Assembly (NCBI GenBank): GCA_013141495.1
Contig: JABFQV010000008.1
Span: 186,001 to 250,000, forward strand
DNA from: Methylotenera sp.
GTDB lineage: Bacteria; Pseudomonadota; Gammaproteobacteria; Burkholderiales; Methylophilaceae
Reading direction: 5' to 3'
DNA: 64,000 bases
The position numbers were made by a program, and so were the translations under genes. Below, in pieces: positions 16,945 to 25,037 of this stretch. Each line of letters opens with the position of its first letter. Position 1 is the stretch's first letter. The notes beneath the pieces were generated by a model, which saw nothing but the letters and a program-made list of their open reading frames with translations, did not search any database and was not told the DNA's origin.

Positions 16945-19074
16945 CTAGGGTTGCGTCATGTTCTGGTTGGCAGACTGTTGCCAAATAGCTTGATAAATAG
17001 CCTCTAATGACTGCGCAAAGTGATGGGTGTCAAATAATGCAGAGGTCATTTTCTCAGCCAGTAACTTTTGTTTCATGGCGGTAATCATGGCTGGGTTGTT
17101 CGCAAGCTGAAGCGCTTTTTGTTCATAATCTTGCAAGGTGCAAGTCATTAACTCGGTCAAGCCTGCCGCGCTTATTAAACTACCTGCCACACGCGCTGCA
17201 AAAGTTTCACCTGCACAGGTTAGCACTGGAACGCCCATCCATAGCGCATCGCTACAAGTGGTGTGTGCATTATAGGGCAGGGTGTCTAAAAATAAATCAG
17301 CATGCGCATGGCGTGCGAGATGCTCGGCAATGGCAACCCGCGGCGCAAAAATGAGGCGCTCAGCAGCAATGCCAAGGGCAACGGCTTCGCGCATTAAATT
17401 TTGCTTTGCTAACATATTGCAATCAAGCAACCAAAGCACGCTGTTTGGTACGGCGTTTAGTACGCGCATCCAAATTGAAAATACATCGGGTGTAATTTTG
17501 AAGCTTTGATTAAAACAGCAGAATACAAACGCGCCTTCTGGTAAGTTGCAATCTTTGCGCGTAGGTGTTTTGCCTACTGGGCGCTTGCGGTCGTTAGGTT
17601 GATAGCTATGCGGTAAAACGGCTAATTGCTCTGCATAGTGTGATGCTGATGCTGGTGGGCTAATGAAATTGTCAGTTAACAGGTAATCAAACAGTGGTTC
17701 ATCATCAAAAGCGCCCATGGTGCCAGGAAAGCCCAGCCAGCTCACATTAATAGGCGCCGGGCGTAGGGCAGCAATGCCACTGCGACTGGTTTGTGTAAAG
17801 CCGGTTAAATCTATCAATATATCAATATCGCTGGCATATATTTTTTTTGCGGCTTCAATTTCAGACAGTTGTCGAATGTCATGAAATTGATCAAAGGCTT
17901 GTTCTAGCCTTGCTCTGGCACTGGATTTATCATTAACTCCGTAAGAAAATCCAACAATTTCAAATTGGGATCTATCGTGTAATTCAATGAGTTCGCTGAT
18001 TAAAAAGGCAAGAGGGTGTAGCCTGAAATCTGCAGATAAATAGCCCAGTTTTAATTTTTTCTGTGAGGTTTGTTTGTGGTGCGTAACCTCATGTGGCGTA
18101 AACCTAAGTTGTTGACGATGTTGTATTAACCCCCCATAGCGATTTTTTACCCAGTTATTTGCACATATTTTTTGTTGTTCTGCCGTGGTGTTTGGCATGG
18201 CTAAAAATGCAAACGGTGAAATCTGTGCGCTGGGTTGGGTCGTTACCCAATGGCAAATTTCGGCAATATCGTGATCTAAACCTTGCCAATCGCAAATGTG
18301 CTGTTTTTGATGCACAAGATGCACCTTGGCATGATGCAATTGCGGGTTCAGTTGCAACGCTTTTTGGTAGCTTTCAATCGCTAAATCCAACTGTCCTAAT
18401 TCGCGCTGAACATTACCTAAATTATTGTAGGTATCTGCATCATTGGGGTTAATCTGAATCGCTTTTTGGTATTGTTTAGCCGCTTCAGTTGGCCTACCTA
18501 GCTCACGTTGGGCGTTACCCAAGTTATAAAGTAATGCAGCATCTTGCGGGTTAAACTGTAACGCTTCCTCAAAGCTGGTAGCCGCCTGCGTAAAGTTACC
18601 CATGGCATGCGCTTGGTTGCCCAGCGAGGTTAAACAATGGCAAAGTGCCTCACGGACATCCTCTTTTTTAGGCATGGCGCGCAATACACGGCGATAGTAG
18701 CCTGCGGCCTCTTCAAAACGGTCAACTGCAAGTAGCGTGTTGCCTAAATTAAGTTGCACATCTAAATCTTTAGGTTGCAGCAACACCGCTTGCTGAAAGC
18801 TTTTGATGGCAGCTTCTAGCTCATTATTAGCGCGTAACGCCAGCCCGCAATTGTTTAAATAATCCACATTACGCGGGCTAATGGCCAACGCTTGTTGAAT
18901 GTAGCGCACCGCATCTGCCGCACGATTGGTTTGATAGCAAATAATGCCTAGCATGTGATATGCATCAGCATGGTTGGCTTGTATGCTAATCGTTTGTTGA
19001 AAGCCTAGCTCAGCTTGTGTTAACTGACCATTTCGGTAGAAATTTAAAGCGGTTAAATAGTGAGTGTGCGGCAT
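16945..19074 (-). CDS. TPR protein with O-GlcNAc transferase-like (GT41/SPINDLY) catalytic domain
   Basis: 709 residues. About seven tetratricopeptide repeats (about 1-250, e.g. ADTYNNLGNVQRELGQLDLA) precede a GT41-type domain with LKLGYLSADFRLHPLAFL, DILIDLTGFTQTSRSGI, WLGFPGTMG, and the C-terminal DLFLDTLPYNAHTTCSDALW. Eukaryotic OGT modifies Ser/Thr of cytosolic proteins, and plant SPY is an O-fucosyltransferase. Bacterial members glycosylate varied substrates, including adhesins and flagellar proteins. Donor and target cannot be told from sequence. It is a solitary gene on the edge of the accessory island. Confidence 0.85.
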   Translation of the reverse strand: MPHTHYLTALNFYRNGQLTQAELGFQQTISIQANHADAYHMLGIICYQTNRAADAVRYIQQALAISPRNVDYLNNCGLALRANNELEAAIKSFQQAVLLQPKDLDVQLNLGNTLLAVDRFEEAAGYYRRVLRAMPKKEDVREALCHCLTSLGNQAHAMGNFTQAATSFEEALQFNPQDAALLYNLGNAQRELGRPTEAAKQYQKAIQINPNDADTYNNLGNVQRELGQLDLAIESYQKALQLNPQLHHAKVHLVHQKQHICDWQGLDHDIAEICHWVTTQPSAQISPFAFLAMPNTTAEQQKICANNWVKNRYGGLIQHRQQLRFTPHEVTHHKQTSQKKLKLGYLSADFRLHPLAFLISELIELHDRSQFEIVGFSYGVNDKSSARARLEQAFDQFHDIRQLSEIEAAKKIYASDIDILIDLTGFTQTSRSGIAALRPAPINVSWLGFPGTMGAFDDEPLFDYLLTDNFISPPASASHYAEQLAVLPHSYQPNDRKRPVGKTPTRKDCNLPEGAFVFCCFNQSFKITPDVFSIWMRVLNAVPNSVLWLLDCNMLAKQNLMREAVALGIAAERLIFAPRVAIAEHLARHAHADLFLDTLPYNAHTTCSDALWMGVPVLTCAGETFAARVAGSLISAAGLTELMTCTLQDYEQKALQLANNPAMITAMKQKLLAEKMTSALFDTHHFAQSLEAIYQAIWQQSANQNMTQP

Positions 19075-19365
19075 GGTTAATTTTAACCTGAAATCATGTG
19101 TAAGCTAAAAATACCATATTTTATGTGCATATTCTCCTACCAACTAACCACTGTTTCGCAATCATGATTGAACAGCACAATTATTCTAACTGACCAGTTT
19201 CTCATGAGTGCTGACACTAATTAAGAACTATGCATATTTTTTTGAATAGCAGCTTGTGGCAAGTTGATTTATAGGTCAAGGGGCAAATGCCGATCCACCT
19301 CTGTCACCGGTATATTTCCCTGAATGTCTGCAACGGGGGACTTAGCCGACATTCGGGCTTTATAA
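19075..19365. other. gene-free spacer at the left edge of the accessory island
   Basis: No plausible gene was seen. The right part contains GAATGTC and GACATTC as an inverted pair, and CTTAGCCGAC at 19341-19350. The latter is the reverse complement of GTCGGCTAAG at 22487-22496 on the far side of the island. Both copies lie outside the three island genes. Confidence 0.4.
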
Positions 19366-19399
19366 AAACATTAAATTGTCTTCAAGCAATTTAATGTTT
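19366..19399 (-). terminator. hairpin after the 19435-20004 gene
   Basis: AAACATTAAATTG and CAATTTAATGTTT form a perfect 13-bp stem with an 8-base loop, 36 bases beyond the stop of the minus-strand gene. The stem is AT-rich and followed by TTTATA on the minus strand. It is a plausible terminator. Confidence 0.6.
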
Positions 19400-19434
19400 A
19401 AATTTTATACGGTCATAATATTTAGCGATATTCC

Positions 19435-20004
19435 CTAAAAAATATTATTAGACGCACAAGTATTACCATTTAAGGTGTTATTTGCCGGACAGGTTAAAGT
19501 TTGATGAGGTTTGTCATATTTTTTAAGGGTATCAAGCATGAAGTAAGGTAGCCAATGATTTTCGTTTGAGTACTGGTAATCAACACCAATGTTTGAATAG
19601 GGAGCTTTCACACCTACCCCTGCAAAAATACCTTTAACAAAGTCATACCCCCCGCCAATCTCACCTTGAATGGTTTCATTACCATTAAAATATTTGGCGC
19701 GTAACTTTCCTAATTCAAATCCACCAATAAACTTAGTGGATATTGATATATCACTTCCATCAGTATCTCCATTGGAATCTACTTTAGCATGACGCAAGCC
19801 GACAACAGCCTCAGGCTTAAAGCTCTCTCCAAATGTCCATTTTAATGCGGCGTAGATTGAGTTATGAATCGAAGATTCTGAAGTTTGTGTGGGGGTACTT
19901 GTACTTGGTGGAGTTTGCTGCATGGCTTGAACTGAGTTAACAGTACCAATCGTAGTCGCAATTACTAAATACACTTTAATTCGTTTAACTTTTGGTGGCT
20001 GCAT
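19435..20004 (-). CDS. small exported outer-membrane-type protein, function unknown
   Basis: 189 residues with an N-terminal signal peptide (cleavage likely after VQA, about 28). A Thr/Ser/Pro-rich stretch follows, then alternating hydrophobic segments typical of beta-strands (AVVGLRHAKVD, GGFELGKLRAKYF, GEIGGGYDFVKGIFAGVGV, NIGVDYQYS). It ends in Phe, as outer membrane barrels often do. The C-terminus carries two Cys (LTCPANNTLNGNTC) that could form a disulfide. No family was recognised. It diverges from the TraX and ubiquitin genes. Confidence 0.55.
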   Translation of the reverse strand: MQPPKVKRIKVYLVIATTIGTVNSVQAMQQTPPSTSTPTQTSESSIHNSIYAALKWTFGESFKPEAVVGLRHAKVDSNGDTDGSDISISTKFIGGFELGKLRAKYFNGNETIQGEIGGGYDFVKGIFAGVGVKAPYSNIGVDYQYSNENHWLPYFMLDTLKKYDKPHQTLTCPANNTLNGNTCASNNIF

Positions 20005-20170
20005 AATTCAATCTCAATTTTAGTAGTTTCTTGTCATAATAACATTGATAATGGTGAAATAAAACGTGTAGAGTTCTGCTATATAAATGGAGTGATATAT
20101 TTTTATTCATAGCATCAAGAGTAAGTTACGCCAGAATGTCATTTCTGACTACTCAATCAAGTCAGGAACA

Positions 20171-20830
20171 TTGGAAGCCTTAAAGTGGCTTGCTTTTGTT
20201 TTCATGGCTATTGACCATTTATATAAGTTCATACCTGCCATGCAACTGCAATTTATTTACCCTGTTGGAAGAATAGCAATGCCATTGTTTGCATTTATCT
20301 TTGGCTACACTTTAACTTATTTCAAATTTGATGATTTTCATTCAGTATATAAGTTACTTTTTAGGTTGTTGGTTACTGCATTAACTTCATCGTTGCCCTA
20401 CATTTATCTTCAAAAAGGCTTTATCGGTTTTGGTTTGTGGCCCTTAAATATTATTTTCATGTTTTTTCTTGCCGTACTTATTTTGTATATAAATACATGG
20501 AAAACAGAATATAGAGTATTGATTGCAGTCCTGCTCTTTATTGTGGGGGGGATGTTCGTTGAATATTTTTGGGCAGGATTGTTGCTAGTTATCTTTTCAT
20601 ACTACTTTATTAAAAGACCGAATTGGCAAAACTTATTAGTGATACTTTTAAGTTTTTTATTGCTTATAGATTTAAATGGAAATTTTTATGCTTTTTTATT
20701 TTTTCCAATAGTCTATTACGCTCAATTTTTAGATTTAAAATTCAAAAGAATAAAACATATATTTTATATTCTTTACCCACTACATCTTTTGGTTATAAGT
20801 GGAATAAAGCTATTGAATAATCTTCAATAA
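20171..20830 (+). CDS. TraX-family polytopic membrane protein (putative acyltransferase)
   Basis: 219 residues, strongly hydrophobic with about seven membrane helices. The motifs ALKWLAFVFMAIDHLYKF and PVGRIAMPLFAFIFGY are characteristic of the TraX family, whose F-plasmid founder acetylates the N-terminus of pilin. The only canonical start in frame is TTG 20171 (AGGA a few bases upstream). However, the family motif SGTLEALKWLA begins upstream, within an open frame back to about 20096 that lacks ATG, GTG or TTG. The start may be noncanonical, or the 5' end damaged. The gene is very AT-rich, unlike its neighbours, suggesting transfer. Confidence 0.75.
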   Translation: MEALKWLAFVFMAIDHLYKFIPAMQLQFIYPVGRIAMPLFAFIFGYTLTYFKFDDFHSVYKLLFRLLVTALTSSLPYIYLQKGFIGFGLWPLNIIFMFFLAVLILYINTWKTEYRVLIAVLLFIVGGMFVEYFWAGLLLVIFSYYFIKRPNWQNLLVILLSFLLLIDLNGNFYAFLFFPIVYYAQFLDLKFKRIKHIFYILYPLHLLVISGIKLLNNLQ

Positions 20831-20920
20831 TATCTTGTAGACAAATACAATCAAACAAGAAAAATCATCTTACAAAGCAGTCGCGCAGATTTTCAAACAG
20901 GCTGTACGATAACTGCAGTG

Positions 20921-20926
20921 TATAAT
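20921..20926 (+). promoter_or_regulatory. likely -10 box of the ubiquitin-autotransporter gene
   Basis: A perfect TATAAT lies 31 bases before the ATG at 20958. I see no good -35 hexamer at the right distance, and no clear ribosome site before the ATG. The gene may therefore depend on an activator and be weakly translated. Confidence 0.4.
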
Positions 20927-20957
20927 CCACCACATTAAAAATTCAGCTCTTACACAT

Positions 20958-22460
20958 ATGACTATCCGCCTAATTTTCATCATCACGCTTATGTTTTTTT
21001 CCTCATCTGCATTTGCAATGCAGATTTTTGTTAGAACACTCACTGGAAAAAATATCGCACTTGAGGTGGAGCCTAACGATACTATTGAAAATGTAAAGGC
21101 AAAAATTCAAGAGAAAGAAGGCATTCCGCCAGACCAACAACGATTAATTTTTGCAGGTAAGGAACTTGAGGAAGGCAGAACACTTGCAGATTACAATATC
21201 CAAAAAGAGAGTACGCTTAATTTGGTTTTGCGTTTAGCTGTGACTACACCACCCACATCAGACACTACCGTGAAAGACCAGTTGGCAATGCAAGCCTATG
21301 CAGCTCAGCGATTCACCGCTAGCCAAATCAATAATATTACAAACCACTTTCTATCCTTGCATCAAAACTTTAGCGTTAGAAATAATAGCTTTGCAATTAA
21401 TAGTAGCAACTCAGCTCTTAACTCTTTTGCATCATTATTAGATGGCTACGCTTCCGAGCATCATTCTCAAGTTCGATTCATTCCTAGAGCATCAATAAGC
21501 AATCCAATAGTCCTTGCTGAGAATAATATTGAATCATCAGCACAATCCCAAGCTATGATCGATACCAATGGGACAAAGTACGCTCAATCTGATTATTCAC
21601 AATCATTTTCCCAAAGAGTGTTCGGTAATTTACCGATAGGCTTATGGGCTACTGGAACTTTCGACTATGGCGCTATTGACAAGCAAGGGGGCAATAATAA
21701 GTTCTCTACTCAAGGCATCACACTGGGCATTGATTATCAGTTAGCTGAGAACGTCATCATTGGTGGTGCATTAGGCTATGGTTTTGATAAAACCGATGTC
21801 GATGAGTTTGGTAGTAAAACCAAATCACATCAAACTACTGGTAGCCTCTATGGTAGCTATCAGATGCTACCTAATTGGTTTCTTGATGGTCTAGTTGGTT
21901 ATGCTGATACTACTTTTGATAACAAGCGATGGTCTACTACGGACAGTCTCTTTTTGACAGGCAATCGTGATGGCAATGTAACCTTTGGTAGCCTTGGATT
22001 AAGTGCTTTCATTCAAACGCAACAACTCAGTTTGCAGCCTTACCTTAGAGCTGACATTGCGTCTATTAAACTTGATAACTACTCGGAAACAGGTTCAAGC
22101 AACGCATTGACTTATAACAGTAGCAAAGTTACTTCTAAAACTGCATCAGCAGGTTTAAATACCTTTTATGACGTCAAGCTTGAGTCTTCTGCTACGCTAA
22201 CACCATCAGTCAGTTTGCAGTACACCCATAACTTTGATGGTGATATGATTCAGAATATGTTTGCGTCTAATTTAGGTGCGAGTAGTCAAATTTACAAGGT
22301 AAGCACTGGCAGTACTCCGCAGGATTTTGGCACACTAGGACTTGGTCTTAGATACAAATCTCAAAAGAACATCATTGTTGATTTAGCCTATACGGCTTCA
22401 TCTGGCTCAAGTTCGTATCATGCTAATGCTTTTAGATTTGATGTGAGTTTGGGTTTTTAA
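20958..22460 (+). CDS. secreted ubiquitin fused to an autotransporter beta-barrel
   Basis: 500 residues. Residues 1-20 are a Sec signal ending SAFA, so signal peptidase would leave Met21, which is ubiquitin Met1. Residues 21-93 are ubiquitin: by my count 64 of 73 positions match human ubiquitin. Changes are K6R, T12N, T14A, S20N, D32E, Q49E, D52E, S57A and H68N. Lysines 11, 27, 29, 33, 48 and 63, Ile44 and Val70 remain. The RGG tail is replaced by AVT, leading into a Thr/Pro linker. A helical region (about 105-200) precedes a 12-strand-type autotransporter barrel (about 225-500) ending in FDVSLGF with terminal Phe. No E1, E2, E3 or deubiquitinase lies nearby. I infer that it displays or releases ubiquitin at the cell surface. 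Confidence 0.93.
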
Positions 22461-22486
22461 AGCAATGTAGTTTGAGTGTAGCGACA

Positions 22487-22496
22487 GTCGGCTAAG
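22487..22496. repeat. right copy of inverted 10-bp sequence flanking the island
   Basis: GTCGGCTAAG here is the inverse of CTTAGCCGAC at 19341-19350. Both sit just outside the three island genes, and both occur within longer, partly similar sequence (a CATTC follows within about 17 bases in each). They could be remnants of a mobile element or of a dispersed repeat. Confidence 0.4.
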
Positions 22497-22614
22497 GGGA
22501 TTTACCTGCCACTCATTCTTGATTGGCGAACCCTCGCACTTGGGCCAGGAAGTGCCAATTCTGACAGTCTGCACTACATCTCATAAAATATGGTTTTTTG
22601 AGGATCCGTACGAT

Positions 22615-23853
22615 TTAACTTAAAGCAGCGGTCATTTTTGCCAATCGTTTCAGGCCCATCTCTCGTAATAAAAATCGATTCGGGTTGAGTAAGCCTGCAA
22701 GTTCATTTGAAATCGGCAATGCGTCATTACAAATTAAGCCAGCCAGTAGTTCAGCACTCAAGGGCGCACTAGTAAACCCCTTGCTGCCGTGTGCGACGTT
22801 GATGTAAAGCCCTGCAACCCATGGCAATGAATTTACATCTGCACCAGGGCGTGGCGGTTTGGCTTTCAATGTGACTGCATCTAATAATTGACCCACCAAA
22901 GGCCAGTAATCTGTTGTGGTGCAACGTAGCGATACCCGTCCATCCACGATGTTGCCTTGTAACTGATCGTGAAAAAATGGTGAGATGTTGTTTAATTTGT
23001 TTAAATTGGCGAGATGGTCTTTGTCGTCAATTTGCAAGTCATTTTGTTTATTTGTTGTGGCAAAAGTGCTCGAGAACGTGGCGCCTAAGCAGTGATAATG
23101 TTTCGTGTTCTGTTGAAGTGCCGCTGGGCTTAAATAGCCGTCGCTACAGACAATTGTTTTTAATTGACGGCTTGTTTCTATGGCTTTGAGTATGCTGACC
23201 TGCCCGCGCACTGCTTGCGTATTTAGCACTAAGTTAGGTTGAAGTTGTTGTGCGTCGTTGGCATTGGCAATTACCACAATGTCTGCCTTGGCTATGATGT
23301 TTTTATGGTTATACACTTCAAATATTTGACCGTTTTTTAATAATCTCTCCACGTTGCTTGCAGTAAACACTGCAATGTTTTTGTGCTCAGTTAAACGCTG
23401 GCAAAGCTGTTGCGGTTTAGCCCATCCTGCGTCAGGAAAGTAAAGGGCATCATATTCAATATCAATGCCGGCAAGTATGCTAGCTTCAGCTTTCGTGACT
23501 AACTTCAGAACACTACGCGGGTGATGTTGTGCCGCCACTTTTTGAATGCGCACTAATTCTCTTTGGTTAAAACCGAGTTGCAGCATGCCGCAAATATCAA
23601 AGTCTGATGATGGTAAATCCAGTGATTTAAATAAAGCCAAGCTGTGCAAGTAGCTGGCGAGTGCAAATTTACTGGCAACATCATCACCACTTAAACGCGG
23701 GTATAACATGGCGAGCGGATTGCCTGATGCTTCGCTGGCAATCTTGGTATTGCGTTCTAATAGTGTTACCTGTATGCCGCGCTGTGCTAATGCAAAGGCT
23801 GTACTACAACCTGCAATGCCACCACCGATGACAATTGCGGTTTTAGGCGCCAC
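22615..23853 (-). CDS. mnmC: FAD-dependent cmnm5(s2)U34 oxidoreductase domain of MnmC, as a separate gene
   Basis: 412 residues. It has an N-terminal FAD-binding GGGIAGCSTAFALAQRG, a second conserved segment (RGQVSILK) and a C-terminal VNVAHGSKGFTSAPLSAELLAG typical of the oxidase half of MnmC. This half converts carboxymethylaminomethyl-uridine at tRNA position 34 to aminomethyl-uridine. In E. coli it is fused C-terminal to the methyltransferase. Here it starts with GTG at 23853, overlapping the methyltransferase gene by 11 bases in another frame, with AGGT upstream. The two halves add up to about the size of the fused protein (661 against 668). Confidence 0.88.
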   Translation of the reverse strand: MAPKTAIVIGGGIAGCSTAFALAQRGIQVTLLERNTKIASEASGNPLAMLYPRLSGDDVASKFALASYLHSLALFKSLDLPSSDFDICGMLQLGFNQRELVRIQKVAAQHHPRSVLKLVTKAEASILAGIDIEYDALYFPDAGWAKPQQLCQRLTEHKNIAVFTASNVERLLKNGQIFEVYNHKNIIAKADIVVIANANDAQQLQPNLVLNTQAVRGQVSILKAIETSRQLKTIVCSDGYLSPAALQQNTKHYHCLGATFSSTFATTNKQNDLQIDDKDHLANLNKLNNISPFFHDQLQGNIVDGRVSLRCTTTDYWPLVGQLLDAVTLKAKPPRPGADVNSLPWVAGLYINVAHGSKGFTSAPLSAELLAGLICNDALPISNELAGLLNPNRFLLREMGLKRLAKMTAALS

Positions 23854-24592
23854 CGGTATTACCTAGACTATTGTTACTTGAATCATTTTGATTGCCGACA
23901 AAATAACCGTCAATCATTTCACGTTTTTTGCCAAAGCCTGCGCGCTTGTTCACTTTAAAACCTGCAAACATTAAGCCTCGTCTCACTATGCCGGCGCTGC
24001 TAAAGGTGGCAAATGTCGTATTTAAGTGTGAGAGCTTTGCCATTCGTTTAAACAGTGCTGGCTGCCACATGTCAGGGTTTTTAGCGGGAGAAAAACCATC
24101 TAAAAACCAGGCGTCGGTTTGATGCTGGAGGTGTGTTAATTGCTCGGTTGCATCGCCAATCAATAAGTTTAGCTCAATTCTATTGTCATAGAGACTGATT
24201 GATCTTGTATCGATCAGTGTTGCATATTGCGCCAGTAACGGGGCGCTTAACGTCGTTAATTCAGGCCATAACTGTAAAGCCGTTGTGATGTCTGATAACG
24301 TCAGCGGATATTTTTCAACACTAATGAATTTCAAAATCGCATTTTTTGGCGCAGTTTCAAGCCATAATTTAGCTACGCATAAAAAGTTTAAGCCAGTACC
24401 AAAGCCAGTTTCGGTAATCGTGAACGTTTGAAAGTTATGCTGTTGCCAACGCGTAGCTAAATTATTGCCTTGTAAAAACACATAACTTGTTTCAAGCAAG
24501 CCGTTATCACTCGAAAAATAAACATCTTGAAACGCGCTGGCAAACGGCTGCCCTTGCTTCCATTCGATGATTGCGTTATCTATCGGTCGCAT
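23843..24592 (-). CDS. mnmD: tRNA (5-methylaminomethyl-2-thiouridine) methyltransferase, MnmD-type
   Basis: 249 residues. It contains the FTITETGFGTGLNFL SAM-binding motif and the DAWFLDGFSPAKNPDMW signature, matching the methyltransferase half of MnmC or free-standing MnmD. It methylates nm5s2U34 to mnm5s2U34 in tRNAs for Lys, Glu and Gln. The C-terminal tail (NQNDSSNNSLGNTGGA) looks like the linker of a fused protein. It overlaps yhcH by 17 bases upstream and the oxidoreductase by 11 bases downstream. Confidence 0.9.
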   Translation of the reverse strand: MRPIDNAIIEWKQGQPFASAFQDVYFSSDNGLLETSYVFLQGNNLATRWQQHNFQTFTITETGFGTGLNFLCVAKLWLETAPKNAILKFISVEKYPLTLSDITTALQLWPELTTLSAPLLAQYATLIDTRSISLYDNRIELNLLIGDATEQLTHLQHQTDAWFLDGFSPAKNPDMWQPALFKRMAKLSHLNTTFATFSSAGIVRRGLMFAGFKVNKRAGFGKKREMIDGYFVGNQNDSSNNSLGNTGGA

Positions 24593-25037
24593 TCACGGCG
24601 ATCTTAAATACGATTTTGTGGATAGGCTGGTTGGCAATCAGTGGCGCATGCGTATCTTCTGGAAAAAAGATGCAAAATATATTGGTGGGCGTGGAAACCC
24701 AGCTAGCAGGGACGTCATGAAAGAACTGTATATCGGATGCCGTATTGAAAGCACTGACTGGGTTGCGGCAGTCTGCAAGGGGCTTCCAGCCCATTTCATC
24801 GGTGCCATTTAATACTAATTGAATGTCGATATATTTGCGATGGCATTCCAGCTGTGCTGATTCACGTGTGCGCCCTGATACGCGCTCTACAATGGCAAAT
24901 ACATCATCACCTATAATCGTATGCCGACCACAGGCGAGTGCCTGCAAGTCGGTATTGCGTATGTAGGAAAATACTTGTGCAAACAGTGGGTGTAACGCTA
25001 AATAGCGCTCAGCGTTGGCGATCGTATCAAGAATCAT
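24576..25037 (-). CDS. YhcH/YjgK/YiaL family protein (cupin-type sugar anomerase-like)
   Basis: 153 residues, the usual length. Conserved features include LECHRKYIDIQLVLNG, GWKPL, FFHDVPASW and FFPEDTHAPLIA, with metal-binding His and Glu residues. E. coli YhcH (NanQ) accelerates sialic acid anomerisation, and other members act on sugar acids. No sugar-catabolic gene is adjacent, so the substrate here is open. It overlaps mnmD by 17 bases and follows ycaO by 17 bases, forming one minus-strand operon. Confidence 0.88.
   Translation of the reverse strand: MILDTIANAERYLALHPLFAQVFSYIRNTDLQALACGRHTIIGDDVFAIVERVSGRTRESAQLECHRKYIDIQLVLNGTDEMGWKPLADCRNPVSAFNTASDIQFFHDVPASWVSTPTNIFCIFFPEDTHAPLIANQPIHKIVFKIAVNATDR

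Follow-up and report, generated by a model that had tools for sequence, protein, structure and literature searches.

A ubiquitin lacking its terminal glycines on a predicted autotransporter of Methylotenera and related bacteria

The DNA analyzed here, referred to as the window, is a 64,000-nucleotide stretch of a Methylotenera sp. genome (assembly GCA_013141495.1, contig JABFQV010000008.1, positions 186001-250000). Within a small genomic islet of the window is a forward-strand gene at 20958..22460 (ATG at 20958, stop codon ending at 22460; 500 amino acids) that encodes a ubiquitin domain followed by an autotransporter barrel. The initial annotation, made from the sequence alone, described a signal peptide, a ubiquitin, a linker, and an autotransporter barrel in this single gene, and Pfam, TIGR01414, and an AlphaFold2 model agree with that description, with the signal peptide being read by eye. 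The putative Sec-type signal peptide (residues 1-20; 20958..21017, +) has a hydrophobic N-terminus, ends in SSAFA, and was modeled as a helix at residues 2-17. Its predicted cleavage site, between SSAFA and the following M, as also read by eye, immediately precedes Met1 of the ubiquitin domain (residues 21-93; 21018..21236, +).

The ubiquitin domain matched PF00240 over residues 23-93 (expect value, E, 1.4e-28). Alignment with human ubiquitin gave 64 identical residues of 73, as had been estimated, and the nine differences are K6R, T12N, T14A, S20N, D32E, Q49E, D52E, S57A, and H68N. Six of the seven lysines of ubiquitin are retained, and there is no cysteine anywhere in the window protein. The modeled domain superposed on solved ubiquitins with a root-mean-square deviation of mostly 0.7-1.0, so that a ubiquitin beta-grasp fold was found together with a ubiquitin sequence (in these fold searches, families that did not turn up are not thereby excluded). 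The domain lacks the C-terminal Gly-Gly (GG), and the chain runs straight into the translocator part for 407 further residues.

That part begins with a short stalk (residues 94-102; 21237..21263, +), defined as the interval between the PF00240 match and a modeled helix starting at residue 103. The helix is the probable pore helix of the translocator (residues 103-137; 21264..21368, +), with a predicted local distance difference test score (pLDDT) of about 69-91. It is followed by a low-confidence, probably disordered segment (residues 138-226; 21369..21635, +; pLDDT under 50 at 139-223), which is highly variable among relatives and almost missing in one of them (G076), and by a 12-stranded beta-barrel ending in Phe (residues 227-500; 21636..22457, +). 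The AlphaFold2 model, for which the alignment held 9 sequences and the mean pLDDT was 71.9, has beta-grasp elements at 21-91, the helix at 103-137, low confidence at 139-223, and 12 long strands, counted by hand, inside residues 227-499. The barrel matched PF03797 over residues 229-478 (E 2.5e-42), and residues 101-496 matched the TIGR01414 autotransporter module (E 7e-14). Alignments to NalP, EstA, and EspP begin at residues 92-104 and thus cover the helix, although its position inside the pore is predicted from the model and the alignments rather than from inspection of the pore. On these models the C-terminal region is a clear type Va translocator, with both the 12-stranded barrel and the preceding helix predicted; the initial annotation had made its proposal depend on such a barrel match.

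The architecture is not confined to the window. PF00240 scored over the cut-off in 10 of the 187 genomes of the window's family, these being G000, G004, G014, G017, G025, G031, and G172 in the window's genus and G076, G102, and G183 in three other genera, two of them (G102 and G172) single-contig genomes. In nine of the ten carriers (9/187 family genomes) the ubiquitin is fused to an autotransporter, so that the search for this architecture in other genomes suggested by the initial annotation was rewarded. The tenth, G183, has a signal-peptide-like start, the ubiquitin, a weak immunoglobulin (Ig)-like match below the cut-off, and, by eye, a C-terminal hydrophobic stretch. In wider samples the domain was over the cut-off in four genomes out of 399 from the order and two out of 369 from the class, with the window's own genome counted in both. 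That genome has one PF00240 match and two PF03797 matches, one of which is the ubiquitin-autotransporter gene. When the translocator (residues 94-500) was used as the query, 27 of the 155 family genomes searched had matches. Six genomes (G000, G025, G014, G172, G102, and G076) had matches that covered most of the query at 36% identity or more, and these were all ubiquitin fusions; the others had 21-34% identity to parts of the query and lay mostly in frames 500-1800 residues long. Three fusion carriers, G031, G004, and G017, were not among the 27 and presumably lay outside the 155 drawn. Close relatives of this translocator therefore appear, from these comparisons, to be found only together with ubiquitin, and this association is new here.

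The initial annotation inferred a recent acquisition from a eukaryote, and this is not supported for the gene family. The ubiquitins of G031 and G102 are 90% identical in protein and 74% in DNA, with synonymous divergence (dS) saturated, whereas their barrels are 38% identical. Between the window and G025 the ubiquitins are 82% and the barrels 75% identical, with a dS of about 1.2-1.4. In the codon test, dS was returned as -1 (saturated, no estimate) in many pairs. Because the fusion is shared by 9/187 family genomes, and the more distant pairs are saturated or very highly diverged at synonymous sites, the ubiquitin was probably resident in these bacteria long before the islet arrived; a recent transfer of the ubiquitin itself is unsupported by the codon comparison of the domains. 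Repeated re-acquisition may be an alternative history. A tree of 50 ubiquitin domains (73 columns), which the initial annotation had proposed building, did place human ubiquitin as the row nearest to that of the window, and on it the nine rows from the window's family require 4 changes. It does not separate one transfer from several, however, because all of these ubiquitins are alike and 29 of its 47 inner branches are open.

Comparison of the nine fusions also gave some indication of what has been conserved. In the close pair G025-G014 the ubiquitin has a nonsynonymous divergence (dN) of 0.064 and a dS of 0.428, and the barrel a dN of 0.079 and a dS of 0.435. Since the two parts evolve alike in this pair, the ubiquitin is under the constraint usual for a conserved protein, rather than the one seen in eukaryotic ubiquitin. 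The ubiquitins of G004 and G017 have drifted strongly (45/73 and 43/73 identical to human) and have lost L8 and I44, with the fold signature and architecture kept; the hydrophobic patch L8/I44/V70 is retained in 7/9 ubiquitin-autotransporters. By our reading, the residues invariant across all nine are mostly at core positions. These invariant core residues, the surface drift in G004 and G017, and the ordinary constraint in G025-G014 are what would be expected if ubiquitin were no more than a compact and highly stable fold, acting as a cap or spacer on a surface protein without ubiquitin-specific binding. We consider this quite improbable, as a mere spacer should drift faster than the 90% versus 38% contrast of G031 and G102 indicates, and the domain turns up again on unrelated anchors, as described below.

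The islet that carries the gene (19095..22613; 3.5 kb) is absent from the sister species and has a guanine-cytosine (GC) content of 0.368, versus 0.448 for the window. In the sister genome G029 the counterparts of the flanks, 16978-19094 (88.9% identical) and 22614-24923 (83.3%), join with five bases between them, and the empty site was also found in G170, G014, G025, G012, and G021 (8 genomes compared, including G029). Two of these, G014 and G025, lack the insert at this site yet carry the fusion elsewhere in the genome, and the gene appears from such comparisons to move between loci. In the other two, G016 and G179, the left flank does not align and other genes are present there (L122 and L121, respectively). 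The differing genes that G179 and G016 carry to the left of what we label an mnmC-like gene give the site the look of an insertion hot spot. The recent event is the arrival of the islet only, not of the gene family.

The low GC content of the islet could point to contamination or a chimeric assembly, but that explanation has a negligible likelihood and we consider it ruled out. This is because the fusion is present in nine family genomes, including the single-contig G102 and G172, the contig extends beyond the window and its 2.49 Mb genome has a completeness of 99.99 and a contamination of 0.2, and the empty site in G029 is clean. The locus is genuine, and the contamination that the initial annotation had named as a ground for refuting its proposal does not apply.

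Near the ends of the islet is a pair of inverted repeats (19105..19125 and 22582..22602) that match at 19 of 21 positions, a pairing without equal in up to 600 random pairs (not GC-matched) or 600 shuffles. A similar hairpin (L129) is present elsewhere in the genome, between genes that we label lipA- and lipB-like. We do not claim that the islet is a transposon, as its end repeats may be a short genomic repeat. Besides the ubiquitin-autotransporter, the islet contains a 189-residue orphan with a signal-peptide-like N-terminus by eye (19435..20004, -), which had no Pfam match and no match in the plasmid search, and a gene for a TraX-family membrane acyltransferase (20171..20830, +). Promoters and terminators predicted at the locus were not above shuffled sequence. 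Just left of the islet, at 16945-19074, is a protein with TPR and Glyco_transf_41 domains (O-GlcNAc-transferase-like), which is shared with the sister genome and so lies outside the islet. No conjugation or deconjugation enzyme was found among the scanned flanking genes (10 proteins, two of them without a family match, and TraX; no genome-wide search for E1, E2, or deubiquitinases was made), in keeping with the initial annotation.

The TraX gene is directly upstream of the ubiquitin gene on the same strand, and its product matched PF05857 with an E of 6.4e-34 and 118 bits, against a cut-off of 25. TraX is the neighbor in 3/10 ubiquitin genomes, the window included, and in 6/10 the neighbor is a divergent protein of ~330 residues whose resemblance to SETD3/LSMT is weak and comes from a low-confidence model. 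This SET-like family (L058:8349-9335, L043:3609-4595, L044:8265-9254, L045:10054-11043, L060:8313-9302, and L059:1089-2093) adjoins the ubiquitin gene in all six genomes with an intact copy. A distant, broken copy with one TAG and two frames (L089:744-1756) occurs in G205, a genome without a ubiquitin match. The SET-like profile matched 0/398 order genomes, but no known holder was matched in that search either, so that little is shown by it. TraX occurs in 11/187 family genomes and 3/10 ubiquitin genomes (P about 0.015 without phylogeny). As a fixed partner of the ubiquitin gene it is a weak candidate, since the window TraX matches seven TraX proteins from ubiquitin-free relatives and not those of G004 and G017. 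Either neighboring enzyme, the SET-like protein of most relatives or the TraX of the window, may act by modifying the ubiquitin or by shielding the producing cell.

Ubiquitins of the same kind are also found far beyond the family. With the window protein as query, 36 loci were found in genome_contigs, and these were pooled with the family, order, and class loci into a set of 49 ubiquitin proteins (L032 and L042 were dropped as their frames were cut, L008 was counted twice, and L045 and L060 are near-copies). This set was gathered by similarity to the window and is no census, and its signal peptides were judged by eye. All 49 matched PF00240, Ala stands directly ahead of the ubiquitin start in 44/49, the start is Met in 47/49, and GG is present in 0/49; L041 has just 12 residues ahead of the domain in frame, where a signal peptide is not evident. 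At E 0.01 or better the anchors were an autotransporter barrel in 11/49, InlB-type repeats in 4, Fn3 in 3, and a CHU_C type IX signal in 1 (Pontibacter L036), and the C-terminus of L062 is IPTL-CTERM. A Met1-first, GG-less ubiquitin thus appears, from these sequences, to recur on unrelated anchors in other phyla, which is also new. Seven loci (L043, L044, L045, L060, L058, L059, and L061), whose ubiquitins are on different anchors, have in common an extended stretch of similar sequence (LVS..GI.FTS) ahead of the signal peptide, which is not present in the window. In one Clostridia metagenome-assembled genome, two such ubiquitin genes are in tandem (L008:5962-7079), with C-terminal parts that are similar by eye.

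Further examples lie outside the 49. A search of plasmids with the signal peptide and ubiquitin found two records, Ruminococcus albus 7 pRUMAL01 and Pseudoalteromonas shioyasakiensis p1. The R. albus protein (L160:3935-4675) has a signal-peptide-like start, a GG-less ubiquitin, and a domain that by eye resembles those of its neighbors; its gene is near those for a PI-PLC-domain protein and a dockerin protein. R. albus 7, which has such a ubiquitin, is a named strain, and its plasmid record is complete. In P. shioyasakiensis (L161:4986-10255) a ubiquitin-like head, 40% identical to that of the window, is borne by a very long protein with an Ig-like annotation. The full-length protein matched 71 plasmid records, the best 20 of which match translocator regions, some from the last third of the ubiquitin on, and are annotated as autotransporter, Ig-like ("putative Ig domain"), or hypothetical proteins. 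A phage search with the signal peptide and ubiquitin found no match. The sole viral contig, L068, which we read as giant-virus-like, encodes a three-repeat ubiquitin protein that starts at Met1 without a signal peptide and has GG in its first two repeats. The wider GG-less set with signal-peptide-like starts, the islet with its empty site, the adjacent TraX, and the SET-like neighbor in relatives all go beyond the initial annotation.

How might such a protein function? From the type Va mechanism, the protein would be exported by Sec, cleavage by signal peptidase would make Met1 of the ubiquitin the new N-terminus, the barrel at the other end would insert into the outer membrane, and the ubiquitin would end outside the cell on a stalk of ~10 residues above the barrel mouth. 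The domain anatomy on which this depends is seen in the sequence and the model. As GG is missing, ordinary conjugation is excluded, and non-covalent binding remains. The ubiquitin surface would then bind a partner on other cells, most likely a protein of competing bacteria, and the fusion would be a tethered, contact-range version of an antagonist or ligand like BfUbb, the secreted ubiquitin of Bacteroides fragilis. That the product is a non-conjugable, surface-tethered binding ligand aimed at competing bacteria is the reading we favor, tentatively and by analogy. Several observations weigh against it: a tethered ubiquitin has no obvious reach to a periplasmic or inner target, BfUbb is soluble with a C-terminal Cys whereas the window protein has no Cys, and in G025-G014 the ubiquitin changes no slower than the barrel. 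In addition, the L8/I44/V70 patch is kept in most of the fusions, as expected of a ligand for eukaryotic receptors.

The displayed ubiquitin might instead be aimed at eukaryotes, as a decoy, an adhesin, or an inhibitor acting on ubiquitin-binding proteins of grazing protists or hosts. Such a target would suit the 64/73 residues shared with human ubiquitin, the six retained lysines, and the patch conserved in seven fusions, and BfUbb is reported to bind human E1 in vitro and to inhibit ubiquitination in an extract of human cells (PMC3352274). We regard a eukaryotic target as unlikely, as ubiquitin-binding proteins are mostly cytosolic and out of the way of a tethered ubiquitin, GG is absent, L8 and I44 are lost in G004 and G017, and carriage in 10/187 genomes at changing loci equally fits a strain-competition gene. 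Many autotransporters release their passenger, and a protease could clip the ubiquitin from the barrel so that it acts as a soluble bacteriocin. The low-confidence stalk (93-101) ahead of the helix would allow this, and BfUbb is described as working as a free 76-residue protein (PMC5705921). Release is likewise doubtful; attachment seems to matter, because other exported ubiquitins have membrane-type C-termini (the Ig-like match and hydrophobic stretch of G183, read by eye, and the IPTL-CTERM of L062).

The tethered ligand that we favor might also be part of something broader. Display of a GG-less, free-Met1 ubiquitin could be a general bacterial device, repeatedly built on unrelated anchors in several phyla (the type Va barrel, a second barrel type, IPTL-CTERM, the type IX signal, and Ig and Fn3 stalks), which in the window's family would be a mobile module with a partner enzyme that modifies the ubiquitin. 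TraX acetylates pilin, and modification could take the form of acetylation of the freed Met1 by TraX, or of SETD3/LSMT-like methylation. This combined proposal is speculative and probably incorrect in some part, but if true it would mean that these bacteria display, outside the cell, a ubiquitin signal tuned by post-translational modification. Ubiquitin is usually seen as an intracellular eukaryotic modifier, and in the present fusions it forms the conserved head of a protein predicted to be at the surface. This makes testable the question of what ubiquitin binds outside cells, and whether BfUbb is one case of a wide class.

The comparison with BfUbb made in the initial annotation is apt, as both proteins lack the C-terminal GG and both have a signal peptide (here putative, read by eye) directly before Met1. 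In PMC5705921, BfUbb (ubb) is described as one of few bacterial exceptions to ubiquitin being eukaryotic, and as secreted, cleaved at Met1, without the terminal Gly, inhibitory to other B. fragilis strains, and apparently without an immunity protein. A PPIase (peptidyl-prolyl isomerase) tyrosine is critical for sensitivity to it (Jiang 2024, as cited in PMC12396204). We found no other bacterial ubiquitin of this kind whose activity has been tested, and the titles and abstracts listed on ubiquitin with autotransporters, secreted bacterial ubiquitin, and Methylotenera or R. albus ubiquitin included no autotransporter-borne ubiquitin, with most subscription papers outside that coverage. BfUbb differs in being a free, soluble protein of 76 residues with a C-terminal Cys (PMC5705921, PMC3352274), through which its covalent complex with human E1 in vitro is thought to form (PMC3352274). 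The window ubiquitin, in contrast, is the passenger of an autotransporter and adjoins TraX, and the fusions of relatives adjoin the SET-like protein. The type Va autotransporters NalP, EstA, and EspP share with the window protein a signal-peptide-like start, the pre-barrel helix, the 12-stranded barrel, and the C-terminal Phe. The usual passengers of these are a beta-helix, a protease, or an esterase, unlike the single 73-residue ubiquitin found here. The secreted ubiquitin of Globodera rostochiensis, which acts on other cells according to PMC5705921, has the same order of signal peptide, ubiquitin, and C-terminal extension as the window protein, but it is an effector of a eukaryote, loses its extension by cleavage inside the plant, and has no membrane anchor.
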